Of a stretch of DNA of 64,000 nt, positions 8,726 through 18,493 are shown one piece after another (the stretch's first letter is position 1; each line of letters begins with the position of its first letter). A program made the position numbers and the translations under genes. Origin of the DNA: Rhodoferax sp. Its GTDB lineage: Bacteria; Pseudomonadota; Gammaproteobacteria; Burkholderiales; Burkholderiaceae_C. The notes beneath the pieces were generated by a model. The model ran no database searches and had not been told where the DNA came from. It saw nothing but the letters and a program-made list of their open reading frames with translations. Where the stretch lies: contig NZ_JAURYQ010000038.1 in the NCBI RefSeq assembly GCF_030653815.1, forward strand, positions 1-64,000. Direction: 5' to 3'.

Positions 8726-10612
8726 TCAATTTACTCCGGCTGGGAATATCAGGCTCACGGTGGTTCCTTCTGCGGGGGCGCTGCAGATGTCCATGCTGCC
8801 ATAGTGCAGCGCCATGATCTCCTTGACGATGCTCATGCCCAGACCCGTGCCCGATACCTTGCCGGAGGTGTCGGCGCGGTAAAAGCGCTCGCCCACGCGC
8901 CCGGCCTGTTCCGCCGTCATGCCTACGCCCTGATCGGTGATGTGGATGGCGATTTGGCCCGGCAGGCTTTGCACCGTAATGTGCACCGGCTGGCCCGGCG
9001 CTGAATACTTGTAGGCGTTGGACAGTACATTGAGCAAGGCCATCTGGGCCTTTTTTTGATCCGCCCGCAAAAATGCCGGCTCGGCGGTAAGCGCCATGGT
9101 GGGCGGCGTCCGGTCCTTGGGCAGCTTGAGGCCGCGCACCACGTCCTCGATCAGGGATTGCACCGGTATGGTTTCAAAGACAACGTCCTTACCCTGCAAG
9201 GCTTCGATCCGGGCCAGATCCAGCAGTTCATTCAGGATGGATGCCATGAGCTTGGACTGGCGGTAAATGATTTCCAGAAACTCCTTGCGCTCCGCCTCGC
9301 TCAGCTGCTCGGTCAGCAGCACCTCGGCGAAGCCGAAAATGCCCGACATGGGGGTGCGCAACTCGTGCGCGGCGGTGGACAGGAATTCGCTCTTCATGCG
9401 CTCCACCGCCGTTTCATGGCTGATGTCGCGCAGCGAGAGAATCTGCGAGACCGATTGCTCCTGCGATTCGCGCAAGCTCATTCTCAAAACGCGCCGGCCG
9501 GCGGCGGCGCCTGCAGCCTGCTTCAACTCGAACACCTGGTGCGACTCATGGCCACGGCCGGTGTGCGCCGCGCTGCGCAGCGCGGCCAGATCCTGAAAAC
9601 GTGCCTCTGGGAGACACAAGGCCGCCAGTTTGTGTGAAAACGCCAGCTCGTCGAGCCCGATCACCTCGGCGGCAGTCAGTCCGGTGAGGGTGGTGAACGC
9701 CGGGCTGACATACTTGACCAGGCGCCTGTGATCAAAGGCCACATAGCCGTCCGGGCTCAGGGCAAAGATGGCATCGAGTTGTGCGCTGTGCTCGCTCAGC
9801 AGCGCCTCGGCGGCCTTGCGCTGGCTGATGTCGACAAAGCTGCCGACCATGCGCAGCGGCTGTCCGTCGGCGTCACGCTCGACCACGTCGCCACGGTCCA
9901 GTACCCAGACTTCCTGCTGGCCGCTCAGACGCATGCGGTGTTCGCTTTGGTAGCGTCCCTTGCCGGCCAGGCAGTCTCGCAGCCGGGCCATCACCCCGGC
10001 TTTGTCGTCGGCATGTAACAGCGCGGCAAATTCGTGCAGCGGGTGCTGCAGGTAGGCCTCGTCGAGCCCGGTGATCTGGCACCAGCGCCGGTTGTGCGTG
10101 ACGACGCCACTGCGGATGTCCCAGTCCCAGATGCCTTCACCCGTGGCGTCAAGCACATAGTTGAGACGTCGCTCGCTTTCTTCCAGCTTGAGCTGCACCC
10201 TTTTCAGTTCCGAGACATCATTGGCGATCACCAGGATCTGCTTTTTGCCTTCGGGCGTGGTCAGGGGGATCTTGATGGACTGGTAGTAAACGGTCTCGCC
10301 GGTGGTGGCGTCGGTGGACTCTTCCATGACCACCCGGGTCTCGCCCTGCGACATGACGTCACGCACGTTTTGCAGGTAAAACGCCACCTGCTCGGCGTTG
10401 GGGTTGAAGGCACCATCGTCCTTGCCCTCCAGCTGGTCGGGCGTGGTGCCGTAGAGCTGGGCCAGCGCGCGGTTGCCGAGCAAAAACTTGCCATCCCAAT
10501 CCTTCATCAGGATGATGTTGGGGTTCTCGTCGATGACGGTGCGCAGCAGCGTGTTGGCGTCCTGCAAGTGGCTGTTGAGCGTGTCGGTGCTGCGTCTACG
10601 GTGTGTTGTCAT
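8726..10612 (-). CDS. Multi-PAS sensor histidine kinase
   Basis: ORF 8726..10777 re-started at MTTHRRRSTDTLNSHLQDANTLL (ATG at 10612); three PAS-like segments, [39 protein letters not shown]. Confidence 0.88.
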   Translation of the reverse strand: MTTHRRRSTDTLNSHLQDANTLLRTVIDENPNIILMKDWDGKFLLGNRALAQLYGTTPDQLEGKDDGAFNPNAEQVAFYLQNVRDVMSQGETRVVMEESTDATTGETVYYQSIKIPLTTPEGKKQILVIANDVSELKRVQLKLEESERRLNYVLDATGEGIWDWDIRSGVVTHNRRWCQITGLDEAYLQHPLHEFAALLHADDKAGVMARLRDCLAGKGRYQSEHRMRLSGQQEVWVLDRGDVVERDADGQPLRMVGSFVDISQRKAAEALLSEHSAQLDAIFALSPDGYVAFDHRRLVKYVSPAFTTLTGLTAAEVIGLDELAFSHKLAALCLPEARFQDLAALRSAAHTGRGHESHQVFELKQAAGAAAGRRVLRMSLRESQEQSVSQILSLRDISHETAVERMKSEFLSTAAHELRTPMSGIFGFAEVLLTEQLSEAERKEFLEIIYRQSKLMASILNELLDLARIEALQGKDVVFETIPVQSLIEDVVRGLKLPKDRTPPTMALTAEPAFLRADQKKAQMALLNVLSNAYKYSAPGQPVHITVQSLPGQIAIHITDQGVGMTAEQAGRVGERFYRADTSGKVSGTGLGMSIVKEIMALHYGSMDICSAPAEGTTVSLIFPAGVN

Positions 10613-10646: not shown

Positions 10647-11792
10647 TCAGTTGCCGACGATCGTGGCCAGGTGGGCCGCCTTTTTCTGCAACGCTTCGTC
10701 GCTGTCGGCATAACGCGCAGCGATGTCCCGAAATTCATCTTCGAGCGCCAGGAAGGCATCGACCACGTCCGGGTCAAAGTGTTTGCCCCGGCCCTTCACC
10801 AAAATGGCCCGGGCCTTGTCGTGGTCCATGCCGTCCTTGTAAACGCGACGGCTGATGAGGGCGTCATAGACGTCAGCCAGTGCCATCAGGCGCGCGGGGA
10901 TCGGAATCGCATCCCCCACCAGGCCTTGTGGATAGCCCGAACCGTCCCACTTCTCGTGGTGCGAATAGACGATCTGCTTGGCAATCTGGATGAATTCCAG
11001 CGACTCCATGCTCGCCACCTGCGCCTGCATCAGGGCTTCATAACCCAACCGGGGATGCGTTTTCATGATCTCGAACTCGTGAGGCTCATAGCGCCCGGGC
11101 TTGAGCAAAATGCGGTCTGGAATGCCCACCTTGCCGATGTCGTGCAGCGGCGCGCACTTGAACAGCATGTCGATCACGCTGGGGCTCAGGAAACTGGAAA
11201 AACACGGGTGCCCGCTCAGGTGTCGGGCCAGGGCCCGGATGTAGTGCTGGGTGCGCCGCAAATGGTTGCCGGTTTCCACGTCGCGCACCTCGGCCAGCGA
11301 GGCCAGCGCCAGAATGGTGACCTCTTGCAGCGCTGCCATGTCGCGCGCCCGTTTGGCCACCTCGAATTCCAGATACTCGTTGTTGACCCGCAGGGTCCGG
11401 GCGTGCGTGGCATCGACCAGGTGCGCGCGTAGCCGGGACAGCAGGATCTCGGGGCTGATCGGGCGGGTGATGTAGTCGACCGCACCCAGGGCCATGCCCA
11501 TTTCCTCGTTTTCCACCTCGTTCTTGCTGGTCAAAAAAATCACCGGGATATGCTGCGTGCGCGGGTTCCGCTTGAGCTCGCGGCAGACCTCGTAGCCGTT
11601 GATATCGGGCATCATGATGTCGAGCAGGATCAGGTCGGGCTCGTCCTGGCTCACCATGGCGAGCGCCTTGGCGCCATGGTTGACTGCCTTGACGGTGTAG
11701 GACCCGTGCAGCAGGCCAAACAGCAGGGACAAGTTGGCCGGCGAGTCGTCCACGACCAAAATGGTGGGTTTAACGGGGAGAAACAGGTCCAT
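10647..11792 (-). CDS. Response regulator with HD-GYP output (c-di-GMP phosphodiesterase, RpfG type)
   Basis: MDLFLPVKPTILVVDDSPANLSLLF, LILLDIMMPDINGYEV, HDIGKVGIPDRILLKPG, HHEKWDGSGYPQGL. Confidence 0.92.
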   Translation of the reverse strand: MDLFLPVKPTILVVDDSPANLSLLFGLLHGSYTVKAVNHGAKALAMVSQDEPDLILLDIMMPDINGYEVCRELKRNPRTQHIPVIFLTSKNEVENEEMGMALGAVDYITRPISPEILLSRLRAHLVDATHARTLRVNNEYLEFEVAKRARDMAALQEVTILALASLAEVRDVETGNHLRRTQHYIRALARHLSGHPCFSSFLSPSVIDMLFKCAPLHDIGKVGIPDRILLKPGRYEPHEFEIMKTHPRLGYEALMQAQVASMESLEFIQIAKQIVYSHHEKWDGSGYPQGLVGDAIPIPARLMALADVYDALISRRVYKDGMDHDKARAILVKGRGKHFDPDVVDAFLALEDEFRDIAARYADSDEALQKKAAHLATIVGN

Positions 11793-11799
11793 GGCCACT

Positions 11800-14700
11800 C
11801 TAGTTTGGGGCGATGCGCGCGTCGGCTGCCGCTTGCTGGAGCGTTTGCAGTGCGTCCGAGAATTCAAACTCCTGCACTTGTTGCGCCAGTAGCTCGAATT
11901 TAACACCCAGTCCGTTGCGCAGCAAGCCGGCTTGGGTTTGCAGCAATAACTCGGCTTCCGCATTGTTGGCCGCCAGCAGCCTGGCCAGCGTGCTGCAGGT
12001 GTCCGACAGTCGCTGGGCATCCATTGGCTGCCCGGCTTGGACCGGGTCTGGCGTGTCAGGCAAGGCCTTGCGCAGACGCAGTGCCAGATGCGCCAGGTGC
12101 GCCGTTAGCGGCGCAAGCAGGCTCTGTACGGCCATGGGTGGCTGGCCCGCTTGCACCGCCTGGTGCAGGGTGTGCTCGACTTCGCTGCTCAGCGCGCTGC
12201 AACGGACGGCACCCACGTTGGCCGAGACGCCCTTGAGGTTGTGCACCAGGTGCTGTGCCTGTAACCACTGGCCGGCATCGGCGAGTTCTGCCAGCTGGTC
12301 CGGCAGGCGGCTGATGGTGTTCAAGAATTTCTTCAGAACGCCGTGGTACAGCGTCTGGTTGCCCCCGCACAGTCGCAAGCCCTGCACCGTGTCGATGCCG
12401 CTGACGCGCAGCGTGTTGCGTGGCCGCTGCGGCGCGTCGGGCACGGCCGATGCACTGGCAGTGGGCCGGGGTGACGCCGGTTGGCCCCACAGGGCCAGGC
12501 TTTGATGCAGTGCTTCGGGGTCGATGGGTTTGCTCAGGTGGTCGTTCATGCCCTCTTCGAGGCACCGGGCCGCGACCTCGATGTCCGCGTGCGCCGTCAA
12601 GGCGATGATCGGCAAATCTTTAAAACGCTCTTGCTGGCGCAGTGCCAGCGTGGCCTGGTGGCCGTCCATGACTGGCATTTGCAAGTCCATCAGCACCAGC
12701 GACCAGGGCAGGGGCTGGGCTGTGTTTTGCAGCATGTCCAGCGCCTGCTGGCCGTTGTCCGCCAGCGTCACGCGCACGCCCATCGCGGTCATGAGTTCGC
12801 TGGCAATTTGCTGGTTGATCTCGTTGTCTTCGACCAGCAGCACGGCCAAGCCATCCAATGGGTGCCTGCCAGTGGCCGACAAGCTCGATTCACCCGGCGT
12901 CACGGGCTCCGGCCATGCTGCCAGCGCCGCAGGCAACTCTTCAAAGGCCGTTGGTGGGGCGTCCTGCGTCGGGCTGTCGTCCACGTCGGTGCGGGCTTTA
13001 TGGGTTGGCAGATCCAGCCAGGCGGTGAAGGTGAACGTGCTGCCCACCCCCTGCTCAGACTGCACCACCAGATGGCCGCGCATCATTTCAACCAGGCTTT
13101 TTGAAATCGTCAGGCCCAGCCCGGAGCCGCCAAAACGGCGGGTGGTCGAGCTGTCGGCCTGGCTGAAGGCGGTGAAGAGTTTGCTGCGCTGTTCCGCCGT
13201 CATGCCAATGCCACTGTCCTGCACCGACACCGTCAATTGCACCCGCTGACGCTGGCGCTGCGTCGCCACAACAGTCACCTTGACGCGGCCGTGCTCGGTG
13301 AATTTGATCGCGTTGTGGCTCAGGTTGGTCAGCACCTGTTTGAGGCGGGTGGCATCGCCCATCAGGGTTTGCGGTACGTCGGGCTGCACCTCGATCGAAA
13401 ATTTGATGAGCTTCTGATGCGCCAGTTGTCCCACCAGCGTGGTCACGCTGTCGAGCACCTGGTTCAGCCTAAAGGGCGCTGATTCCAGGTTCATCTTGTT
13501 GGCACCAATCTTCGAGTAATCCAGGATGTCGTTGATGATGCCCACCAGCGCCTTGCCCTCGGTGTTGATTTTTTGCAGATAGTCGCGCTGCTTGGCATTG
13601 AGATCGGTTTCCAGCGCCAGGCCTGACAGGCCGATCACCGCATTCATCGGGGTGCGGATTTCATGGCTCATGTTGGCCAAAAATTCACTCTTGGCGCGGT
13701 TGGCCTCATCGGTCTGCTGGCGCGCTGCGCGGGTCAGTTCGAATTGCTGGTGCAGTTCACTGGCCTGCTGGATCAATTCCTGTTGCTGCACCTGGAGCAC
13801 TTCCCCGGACTGTTGCAGGTCGTGCGCCTGGTCCTGCGTTTTCGCCATCAGGTCTTGGGTGACCCGGTTGCGCTCGAAGATTTCCAGGTTCAGCGCCACC
13901 AGCGGCAGCAGTTCGTCCAGCAGGGCCCGGTGGCGCGGGTCCAGGGCGCCATGGGTGGCGAGCACCAGGTACGCCAGCACCTGTTTTTTTCCTGCCGGTA
14001 TCACCGGAACCATCAGTACCGAGCCTGCTTCAAACCCCGGCAGCTCGGCCAGCTCGTCGGTGTTGGCAAAATTGGTTACCAGTGGCGCAGGGTCCGCCAC
14101 GCCGGCCACGCCGAGCAGGGCATAACGCTGGCTCGGTCTGTCCAGAATATAGAGCAGGCCGGCCTGGGCGCCCAACAGCGCGATCAATCGGGCCAGCAAG
14201 GTGTCGGCAAACGCGTTCAGCGTTTCCAGCGACAGCACGCTGGAGGCAATGTCAGCGGTGTTGGACTTGATCCAGCGCAGCACTTCCACCTCGCGCGCGG
14301 CATGCTGCAGCACGGTGAGGGCGCGGGCCATGGCGCCCACATCGTTGTGGAAATCGGTGTGCGGCACGGGGCTGTCCAGCTGGCCGCGCGCCATGGCTTC
14401 AATGCGCAAACGCAGGCGCTCCAGGGGTTGGCTGATGGATCTGATCAGCAACAGGCCGGTGCCCAGGGCCACCAGCAGTCCCAGCACCAGCAGCAGCAAG
14501 CTCAGGTGCTCATAAGCTGTGGCAAAAGCTTCGGCGTTTTCCCAGGCCTGGAGCGCGTTGCTTTCCTTGTGCTGCACCAGCGCATCCAGCCGGCGGTCAA
14601 CTTCCTCAAACAAGGCCAGGTTGCCCGGCTCGAACAGCAAGGCCGCTGCCGCCGGGTCAAAGCGCTGGTCGGTTGCCACCCGATCGGTGATCTGGTTCAC

Positions 14701-15129
14701 GCGCTGCAGGTAGCGCTCCAGCGTGTCAAGGGTCTCGGCCAGCAGGCGCTGGCCTTTTTCCGAACGGAAGCGAGTTTTGCTCTCTTCCATGTTGCGCCGC
14801 AACTCCTGGTGCGCGAGGTCCAGCGCGCGCCGGGCATTGTCGCGCTCACCGGCATTGCGGGCCAACAGCATTTGCCGCAGGTTGCGCCCAACTTCCATCA
14901 GGTGGGTCTGGGCCTCCTTGGTCACAGACAAGCCCACCAGCTTGAGTGTGTACATGTCGCGCAGCTGCGCTGCCTGCTGGCGCTCGCCGTAGATGGCGTG
15001 CGCACCCAGCAGCAAAATAATGCCCAGCAGGACACCCAGTCCGAAACGAAGCTTGCAGCCCAGCGTGAGCCGCTCAAGAAAGTCCATGCCGCTGTGCAAC
15101 AGGAGAGGCTGTGACTTGATTGCACTCAC
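11800..15129 (-). CDS. Hybrid sensor histidine kinase with GAF-like region, receiver and HPt
   Basis: N-terminal TM/4-helix region and [47 protein letters not shown], receiver [18 protein letters not shown], HPt [12 protein letters not shown]. Confidence 0.9.
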
Positions 15130-15134
15130 AGGCG

Positions 15135-17264
15135 TCAGTCCAGCACGACGGGGCGGGTGTCCTGGATTGTGTCGTCCAGCTCTGAGCGGCTGGGACCGGC
15201 CGCGTCAAAGCTGTCCTGCAGGGTGGTGTAGGTGGGCAGGCACAGGCGTACCGTGGTGCCCGCGCCGGGCGCGCTGTCAATCTCAAGCGTGCCATGGTGC
15301 AGCGCAATGATTTCCTTGACGATGCTCATGCCCAGACCGGTGCCGGGAATCCTGCCCGAGGGGTCGGCGCGATAAAAGCGTTCACCCACGCGCGCCCGTT
15401 GCGCTGCGTTCATGCCGATGCCGCGGTCGGTGACCTCGATGCACACGCCGGGAGCCTGGGCGGCCGTGTTCCTGACCCACGCCTTGAGCACCACCGGACC
15501 ACCGTTCGGCGAGTATTTGAATGCGTTGGAGACCACGTTGAGCAGGGTCTGGCGTAGCTTGCCGGCGTCGGCCATCAGGTACAGGGGGTGTTCGGGCAAC
15601 GTCAGTTCCAGGCCCCTGCGGCCATTGGGCACGGGGTAAGTGCGGGCCAGGTCGGTGACCAGCAATTGCAGGTCGACACGGGTGTAGCGGAAGTCCTTGT
15701 CACGGCGCGCCTCGATGCGGGCCAGGTCCAGCAGTTCGTTGAGGATGTTGTTCATCAGCTTGGACTGGACGTAAATGGTATTCAGGAACTCGTGCTGGGT
15801 TGCCTCGTCGAACTTATCGTTGAGCAAGACCTCGGCGTAGCCAAAAATACTGGCCATGGGGGTGCGCAGTTCGTGAGCGGCGGTGGCCAGGAATTCGCTC
15901 TTCATCTGGTCGACCTCGGCCTCATGGGTGACGTCACGCAGGTGCAAAATTTGAGACACGCTGGTGGATTGGCTGGAGCGCAGACCGAGTTGCAGTACGC
16001 GCTTGCTGTCTTGGTTGAGTTCAATCAGCACGCGCTGGTCGGGTCGGCCCCTGTTGACGGCTGTGCGCAGCGCGGCCACGCCCAGGAAAGGCGTGCTGGC
16101 GGAGCAACGCCACGACAGCCAGATCGAGAAATCGTTTTCATCCACGCCTTCCAGCGCCTCCTTGCCCATGCCGGTCAGCTTCCTGAAAGCCGGACTGATG
16201 TAATTGACCCGTTTTTTGGCATCGAAAGAGACAAAGCCGTCGGGGCTCAAATCGAAAATGGCGTTGAGCTGGGCGTTGAGCTCTTCGGTCTGATGTTGTT
16301 CCCGCTCGCGCAAGCGCATTTCGCTGCGGATTTGCCGCAGATGGCGCGTCAGTGCCGTGGCCAGCGCCAGCACCAGCAGGCTCACAATGGCGGCCTGCAG
16401 CCACAAGGCCTGCTTGGCCGTGTTGTGGTTGGCCAGCACCGTCTTGGTATCCAGACCCGCTGCCACCACCAGGGAATGGCCGGGTAGCTTTCGGAAATGC
16501 ACCATGCGCTCGACCTTGTCGACCGGCGAGTGGGCGGTGAATTGGCCCTCCTGCTCGCCCGCGGCGATGCGCGCAAAAACGAGGGAACTTTTGGCCTCGC
16601 TGCCAAACTCTTCGCGGGTGCCCACGCTTCGGGCACGAGCCACACCATCGAGACCGTAGAGCGCCATCAAGCCTTGGTCGCCCAGTTTGAGTTCTTTGTA
16701 GAAGCGGGTGAAGTAACCCGGGTCGACCGACACCACCACCACGCCGGCGAAGTCGCCATTCGGGCGGCTGATGCGGCGCGTCAGCTGGATCGACCACTTG
16801 CCGGTGGCGCGCCCCAGCACGGGTTGTGAGACAAACAGCGCATCGCTGGGGGTGGTGACATGCACCTTGAAGTGCTCCCGGTCGGACAGGTCGATGTTGC
16901 TTGTGATGGGCCGGTTGGCCAGAACATAAATGCCTTTGGCGTTGATGACGCCCACCTGCGGAAAAATCTCTACGTCGATCACACCCTGTGTGGTCAGCGC
17001 CGTCAGGTCAAGCTGGTCGCCCAACTCGAGGTAGCGCGACTGAATGAAGCGAATCACCTGGTCGGCGCCGCGAAAGGTCCGGTCGGCGTGCTCCTGGCTG
17101 ACGCGGGTCAGGTTGGCCAGGTCACGCCTGGCGTTGGCAAGTTCCCTGGTGTGGCTGTCGTTCACCAGCGAGAAAACGTGCCACCACGTCAGGCCCAGCA
17201 GCACCGCCGCAGCCAGCCAAAGCAGCAGCACAATACGTCGGTAATGGGAAATGCTGGCAGGCAC
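15135..17264 (-). CDS. Membrane sensor histidine kinase with periplasmic Cache-like and PAS domains
   Basis: Probable GTG start at 17264 ([28 protein letters not shown]); [40 protein letters not shown]. Confidence 0.85.
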
Positions 17265-17304: not shown

Positions 17305-17667
17305 TTACTTGAGGTGGTTGCGCACCCAGGTGACCACTTGCAGCGGGCTGAAGGGCTTGATGAAATAGGCATCCGCGCCGCGCGCGCGCGCATCGTCGTG
17401 GTCGGCGACTTGACCGCGTGCGGTGATCATGCCCACCAGGGTGTCGCGCGTGTCGGGGTCGGCCTTGATGGCTTGTAGCACCTGCAGGCCGTCGATTTCA
17501 CCCGGCATCATGATGTCGAGCAGAACCACTTTGGGGTGGTGATGGCGCACCGCGGCAAGCGCGCTCACGCCGTCCTCGGCTTCAAGAATATGGTACTCCT
17601 TGCCCAGTGTGATGCTGATCAGGCGGCGGATGTCGGAGTGGTCGTCGACGATGAGGACGGTGTTCAT
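17305..17667 (-). CDS. Stand-alone response regulator receiver
   Basis: MNTVLIVDDHSDIRRLISITLG, VVLLDIMMPGEIDGLQV, GADAYFIKPFSPLQ. Confidence 0.92.
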   Translation of the reverse strand: MNTVLIVDDHSDIRRLISITLGKEYHILEAEDGVSALAAVRHHHPKVVLLDIMMPGEIDGLQVLQAIKADPDTRDTLVGMITARGQVADHDDARARGADAYFIKPFSPLQVVTWVRNHLK

Positions 17668-17676
17668 GAGGGCACT

Positions 17677-18309
17677 TTACGCAGGGGTGTTAAGCAAATA
17701 ACGGCTTTGGTTGACGATGACGGCGGCAATTTCTTGCAGCCGGTCGAACGGAATGGGTTTGGCCAGGACGAGGATCCCAGGTGGCAGGCCGCCGTGGGCG
17801 GCGATGGCCGCCTCATCAAGGCCGGTCACGGCGACGATGGTGGTGTGGGCCAGTTCGGGCGCTTGTTGCAGGATGCGCAGCATGCTGAAGCCGTCCATCT
17901 CCGGCATGCTGAGGTCGGTGATCAACAGGTCCGGACTGCGCCGGCCGATCGCCAGCAGGGCTGCAATGGCGCTGCTCATTTCCGTGACTTTGGTGGGCAT
18001 GGGCCAGCGCGTCAGCTTGGCCTGGTACAAACGCAACAGGTCTGCATCGTCCTCGACCACCATGACGTCGAGCTGGCGCGGCGGGTTGAACAGGGGCTCG
18101 GCCGACACCGACTTGACGGGCAGCTCTGGTTCTTGGCGCAGCAGTTGCGCAATGGAGTCGCGCATCACACGGCGGTGGCCGCCTGCGGTTTTCCAGGCCC
18201 GTAGCAGGCCGCTTTCTACCCAAAGCTGCACGGTGCCTACCGACACACCAAGCAATTTGGCGGCCTCACGGGTGGTGCAAAACGATTTTTCAATGGTGAT
18301 GGTGGACAT
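17677..18309 (-). CDS. Excisionase/MerR-like HTH domain fused to a C-terminal receiver domain
   Basis: MSTITIEKSFCTTREAAKLLGVSVGTVQLWVESGLLRAWKTAGGHRRV (HTH) followed by LDVMVVEDDADLLRLYQAKL...LLITDLSMPEMDGFSML...VLAKPIPFDRL. Confidence 0.9.
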   Translation of the reverse strand: MSTITIEKSFCTTREAAKLLGVSVGTVQLWVESGLLRAWKTAGGHRRVMRDSIAQLLRQEPELPVKSVSAEPLFNPPRQLDVMVVEDDADLLRLYQAKLTRWPMPTKVTEMSSAIAALLAIGRRSPDLLITDLSMPEMDGFSMLRILQQAPELAHTTIVAVTGLDEAAIAAHGGLPPGILVLAKPIPFDRLQEIAAVIVNQSRYLLNTPA

Positions 18310-18333
18310 GAGTGTGCGTGCCGGTTTCGCTAA

Positions 18334-18368
18334 ATTATACAATAATTATCACTTTTTGATAAATATTG
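18334..18368 (-). promoter_or_regulatory. Predicted promoter with an embedded inverted repeat, upstream of the HTH-receiver gene
   Basis: Minus-strand TATAAT (18339-18334), 17-bp spacer, TTATCA (18362-18357); CAATAATTATCA-CTTTT-TGATAAATATTG at 18340-18368, arms 10/12 complementary. Confidence 0.5.
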
Positions 18369-18493
18369 TTGAATTTAAAGCTGTGATTTGAATTATTTGT
18401 GTTGTAACTGCAGCGTCAAAGCGCTTTATTGCACGGTTTGCATGGGTGTTTTCCTTAATGGTCGGACGAGTGCAGACCCGCTAAGCTTGTGCC

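Follow-up and report, generated by a model that had tools for sequence, protein, structure and literature searches.

The HTH-REC protein encoded in the 64,000-nucleotide stretch of Rhodoferax DNA that we analyzed (the window), a response regulator whose helix-turn-helix (HTH) precedes its receiver, is probably a phosphorylation-controlled, BldC-like transcription regulator that would control its own gene by stacking cooperatively on DNA. AT-rich arrays of direct repeats lie in front of HTH-REC genes, and their pitch follows the HTH-REC protein tree. This family-wide, clade-dependent direct-repeat operator is a new element that was previously unremarked. Behind this reading stand two recognizable domains, conserved phosphorylation residues, the arrays, the match between pitch and clade, and a conserved two-component neighborhood. 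To the wider claim, that a large family of response regulators polymerizes head-to-tail on direct repeats via a BldC-like winged HTH (wHTH), while the receiver switches assembly and the pitch shifts between 9 and 10 bp from clade to clade along with the protein, we give slightly less than an even chance.

The gene and its two domains map to the window as follows.

17677 to 18309, minus strand: HTH-REC response regulator gene (ATG at 18309, stop ending at 17677, 210 aa)
18133 to 18279, minus strand: N-terminal winged HTH, residues 11-59, wing T-x-G-G-H-R-R (HTH_17, MerR and TIGR01764 matches above cutoffs, BldC-DNA profile match)
17698 to 18072, minus strand: C-terminal receiver, about residues 80-204 (Response_reg match, alignment, AlphaFold2 model)

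Pfam placed HTH_17 at residues 11-59 (45.7 bits, cutoff 27), MerR (PF00376) at residues 12-47 (36 bits, cutoff 28.2) and Response_reg at residues 82-194 (57.2 bits, cutoff 30.2), and the excisionase domain TIGR01764 of NCBIfam matched with 48.3 bits (cutoff 28.8). A first-pass annotation had described an HTH of the excisionase/MerR type in front of an intact receiver with its acceptor Asp and Lys, and these points were borne out: the HTH comes first, all three HTH models scored above their cutoffs, and the protein contains TREAAKLLGVSVGTVQLWVESGLLRAWKTAGGHRRV in the HTH, ITDLSMPEMDG with acceptor Asp132, and LAKPIP with Lys184. The location given there, 17677-18309, was right in its coordinates, and the gene lies on the minus strand. 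In an alignment of 36 homologues, the acidic D87, the acceptor D132 and K184 of the receiver are invariant, as are Thr41 and Gly43-Gly44-His45-Arg46-Arg47 (GGHRR) of the wing. Its receiver, which has the acidic residues, the acceptor Asp and the Lys, places the protein in the receiver superfamily, and its HTH is of the MerR-like winged type; with the HTH at residues 11-59 and the receiver at 82-194, the order is not the canonical one of OmpR, NarL and NtrC (receiver N-terminal, output C-terminal).

The first-pass annotation had also called for a structure prediction. An AlphaFold2 model made from the 36-homologue alignment (mean pLDDT of 90) showed two confident domains joined by a disordered linker: a helix ends at residue 58, the low-confidence linker follows at about residues 64-68, and the receiver comes next, with no coiled-coil dimerization helix after the HTH. 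Its modest pTM (0.64) is compatible with freely oriented domains. Searching structures with the full model gave, among the matches listed, only receivers and receiver-led regulators. Judged by the sequences, the HTH-REC order is not due to chance, since homologues (E ≤ 1e-15) occur in 26 of 61 relatives, mostly at full length, and the AlphaFold2 domains are confident.

As an architecture, HTH-REC is neither new nor unusual. Homologues at E ≤ 1e-22 were present in 72 of 299 genomes sampled across the phylum, and most of them span both domains; the closest named relative, from Rhodoferax, is 76% identical, and the window's own genome carries only one full-length copy. The viral contigs searched held no relative. 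Plasmid-borne homologues are labeled “response regulator” or “excisionase family DNA-binding protein” in public records, and PDB entry 3cnb is titled “DNA-binding response regulator, merR family.” By that entry name, which joins a MerR-like HTH and a receiver in one protein, 3cnb probably shares the architecture class, but its 143-residue chain matches the HTH-REC protein over the receiver only, and the texts consulted on MerR-class response regulators mention no operator. MerR stands among the HTH output types of response regulators in the classification cited by PMC2222644, and the HTH-REC order is found in archaea in LtrR and FilR1 (PMC5847659), which have the HTH first and the receiver last but archaeal (w)HTH types and other partners, and are likened here by domain order alone. 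These occurrences, annotations and precedents together make the architecture known and ordinary. The reversed order that had been singled out as noteworthy is real, but it is neither rare nor novel, given the 72 of 299 genomes and the existing annotations; the earlier interpretation as a whole is partly supported. A literature search that lacked most subscription journals found no study of this HTH-REC family and no account of its direct-repeat operator.

Next, we looked at the genes around HTH-REC, which heads a cluster on the same strand.

17305 to 17667, minus strand: stand-alone receiver of 120 aa, 9 bp downstream of HTH-REC and a recurrent downstream neighbor
15135 to 17264, minus strand: dCache-PAS sensor histidine kinase (GTG at 17264)
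11800 to 15129, minus strand: 4HB-HAMP hybrid histidine kinase with receiver and Hpt
10647 to 11792, minus strand: REC-HD-GYP response regulator, c-di-GMP phosphodiesterase-type
8726 to 10612, minus strand: PAS-containing histidine kinase, the last gene of the cluster

Downstream of HTH-REC the same-strand gaps are 9, 40, 5 and 7 bp, followed by an overlap. The order HTH-REC, lone receiver, dCache kinase, hybrid kinase and REC-HD-GYP recurs across the genus, and a partial cluster (HTH-REC, then a lone receiver and a 7TM hybrid kinase) is carried by a plasmid of the gammaproteobacterial Methylomagnum. Among 77 named loci with enough sequence, the gene directly downstream encodes a lone receiver in 24 and a kinase in 18; a kinase lies somewhere in the locus in 62, and no kinase partner is universal among them. 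This conserved neighborhood supports a two-component function for HTH-REC. The neighborhood also bears on the notion that the protein is an excisionase-like accessory factor of a mobile element that has acquired a receiver. The TIGR01764 match is what such a factor would display, but the five annotated downstream neighbors are two-component genes, not integrases, and the gene is present as a single copy that keeps its operon position in the genus; we regard this origin as extremely improbable. The conserved kinase cluster and the direct-repeat operator had both been missed by the first-pass annotation.

Upstream of 68 HTH-REC genes of the window's group, TGATA is far more frequent than expected. 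Copies of TGANA were spaced by exactly 10, 20 and 30 bp in 15, 8 and 8 cases in these regions, versus 0.5, 0.6 and 0.1 in dinucleotide shuffles, and the result changed little when near-duplicate promoters were removed. Strict phased pairs occurred in 15 of the 68 promoters; among the other promoters of these loci the figure was 3 of 404, and among AT-matched ones 2 of 49. An unsupervised fit of three tandem units scored 243.7 at period 10 and at most 136 at periods 7-9 and 11-13, with shuffles at period 10 scoring 23.5-35.5; the fitted 10-bp unit is approximately ATTTGAYAAA. Furthermore, a model trained on the 43 promoters outside Rhodoferax-type loci and scored on the 25 held-out Rhodoferax-type promoters found arrays (p < 0.05) in 17 of the 25 at period 10 and in 10 each at periods 9 and 11, and the held-out promoters outscored AT-matched controls (P = 1.2e-5).

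The window's own promoter holds a predicted operator and, inside it, a predicted promoter.

18332 to 18371, minus strand: predicted operator of four 10-bp units, CAACAATATT TATCAAAAAG TGATAATTAT TGTATAATTT (-62 to -23 from the ATG)
18334 to 18362, minus strand: sigma70-like promoter TTATCA-17-TATAAT, inside the array (consensus match only)

Scored with the model trained on other genera, 18332-18371 ranked first in the 64-kb window on both strands (36.0, versus 21.6 for the runner-up), and the array exceeded 2000 shuffles with both four units (p = 0.001) and three units (p = 0.0035). The array is degenerate: the trained model detects it, and the model-free repeat count alone does not classify it, so the assignment in the window itself rests on the trained model. 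In a looser pattern search of the whole genome, the window promoter was among the few best matches; the others were a FecR-TolC promoter, discussed below, and a site at LysR/ilvD, which was weak and which we treated as chance. A mirrored control pattern had two matches in the genome.

When 44 promoters of distant homologues were considered, the pitch changed. The period-10 model did not transfer (1 of 15 promoters), and this failure led to the finding that distant homologues use 9 bp: a fresh three-unit fit to the 44 promoters scored 124.3 at period 9 and at most 46.5 at any other period. Copies of TGANA in the distant promoters are spaced by 9, 18 and 27 bp, and another distant group has repeat units such as TGCAATTTT. 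A model-free count, which tallies runs of at least 5 identical bases at a given lag and assumes no motif, gave z values of 10.7 at lag 10 in the window's clade and 22.4 at lag 9 in the distant homologues. AT-rich control promoters gave 0.8 at lag 10 and 2.6 at lag 9, with a maximum of 5.3 at lag 27 bp that cautions against over-reading single lags. Mapped on the protein tree, the pitch label required 5 changes, versus 12.1 when shuffled (0 of 500 shuffles were as low). In the window's half of the tree, 22 rows are ten-bp and 2 are nine-bp, and in the other half 13 are nine-bp and 2 are ten-bp; the fork between the halves has moderate support only, and 41 of the 68 promoters of the window's wider group, the window included, have no clear pitch by the model-free count.

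These patterns bear on a conventional alternative, a MerR-type regulator whose symmetric dimer recognizes a palindrome; the 10-bp repeats would then be a side effect of AT-rich promoters or of the sequence TATCA-N5-TGATA. The Pfam matches to MerR and HTH_17 would suit such a regulator, for which a palindromic operator between -35 and -10 is expected, and a perfect TATCA-N5-TGATA inverted repeat is indeed present in the window promoter, where it could be a symmetric dimer site. However, this inverted repeat occurs in only 2 of 69 family promoters, where direct repeats prevail, and we rejected a palindromic MerR operator as a general rule on that count. Moreover, AT-matched controls lack the 9- or 10-bp periodicity, the pitch tracks the protein clade, and in the model the HTH is followed by the low-confidence linker rather than by a MerR coiled coil. 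We therefore consider the palindrome-binding dimer unlikely.

We then compared HTH-REC with BldC. A profile of the HTH had the BldC-DNA complexes among its best matches to solved structures (6amk, E 5.7e-11; 6ama, E 1.8e-10). Slightly above them in the same search stood 8jbs (“putative cobalamin binding protein”), whose GGHRR-type HTH lies near the N-terminus, making it another larger protein with this HTH in front. BldC binds 9-bp direct repeats head-to-tail, with protections one helical turn apart; His46, Arg47 and Arg48 of its wing touch the AT-rich minor groove or dock into it, and BldC bends DNA (PMC5859096). HTH-REC resembles BldC in two respects: the invariant H45-R46-R47 correspond to His46-Arg47-Arg48 in a related wHTH, and the operators are direct repeats of variable number with a pitch of about one helical turn (9 bp for BldC, 9 or 10 bp here). 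Because the wing motif and the repeat architecture agree independently, HTH-REC appears BldC-like, and the direct-repeat operator suggests a BldC-like mode of DNA binding by a response regulator. In contrast, BldC is a bare wHTH of 68 residues without a receiver, whereas HTH-REC has one fused C-terminally, and the 9-bp pitch of BldC differs from the 10-bp pitch of the window's clade. Since BldC is a wHTH alone, we did not file HTH-REC as a member of the BldC family; the sequences suggest that it works like BldC but is not BldC. Regulators of the OmpR/NarL type share the receiver switch, and several bind direct repeats, as PhoP and PmrA do (PMC5859096), but their receiver is N-terminal and their C-terminal DNA-binding domain belongs to another fold family. 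Of the relatives with solved DNA complexes, BldC is the nearest, and it bends DNA; by this analogy, phosphorylation could plausibly be coupled to an HTH that distorts DNA.

From the features of the genes and promoters we infer DNA binding, phosphorylation, head-to-tail stacking, an acting kinase and a sign of regulation, which would fit together as follows. The N-terminal wHTH would bind the AT-rich direct repeats with one protomer per repeat, and protomers would stack head-to-tail at intervals of about one helical turn. One of the neighboring cluster's kinases would phosphorylate the receiver, and the phosphorylation state would set how readily protomers stack on the array. The first target would be the HTH-REC gene's own promoter. 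The likeliest outcome would be repression of the whole signaling operon, because the array lies over the predicted -35 and -10 elements, with phosphorylation either relieving or reinforcing it.

BldC set the precedent for MerR-like wHTHs that bind head-to-tail, and it lacks a ligand or switch domain. If the proposed mechanism is true, phosphorylation-dependent cooperative assembly on DNA would be directly testable, with ready-made operators of mutable pitch, and the shift between 9 and 10 bp among clades would be a natural experiment in protein-DNA coevolution. Furthermore, a large set of genes labeled only “response regulator” or “excisionase family protein” would gain a predicted binding mode.

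Arrays were also found at promoters other than that of HTH-REC. In one Rhodoferax-type relative (G003), five strong sites lie at HTH-REC's own promoter and at those of two CheW and two MCP genes, and model scoring added a third CheW gene; the arrays at the three CheW and two MCP genes (L205-L208, L244) have the same 10-bp units as the HTH-REC arrays. These additional sites could mean that the arrays are bound by another protein or by an H-NS-type nucleoid protein, with HTH-REC acting elsewhere, and nucleoid proteins are attracted to AT-rich promoter DNA. On the other hand, the arrays accompany the HTH-REC gene in different neighborhoods and clades, their pitch follows the tree of its protein, and Pfam finds no DNA-binding domain in the other annotated proteins of the cluster. 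A different binder is accordingly quite improbable in our judgment. In most other genomes that have HTH-REC, no arrays were seen at CheW promoters, and we did not generalize a chemotaxis regulon for that reason. The window's own genome has a sole CheW-domain match (G000:C24:103500-103922), in a 331-aa open frame of CheV-like length, versus 12-19 in several congeners; it probably has little or no classical chemotaxis. It does have a good array (G000:C15:35188-35222; L157:3189-3223) directly upstream of a gene for a FecR-like protein, with a long TolC-like open reading frame next and a cyclase-like one on the other strand. This site is absent in relatives, so FecR-TolC as a target of HTH-REC is an uncertain lead.

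Some loci showed further arrangements of the family. Two HTH-REC genes lie close together, often divergently, in single loci (L062, L074, L077, L081, L085, L107, L109, L116, L125 and L134), which suggests that some of these regulators come in pairs. On a Limnohabitans plasmid (pTEGF4, L059), the HTH-REC gene has a PemK/MazF toxin-antitoxin pair and a type II CRISPR-Cas locus in its vicinity. Finally, a Burkholderia plantarii plasmid encodes a 372-codon “GAF domain-containing protein” (L295:2498-3616) whose N terminus aligns with the HTH and the greater part of the receiver, and which is possibly a three-domain HTH-REC-GAF form.
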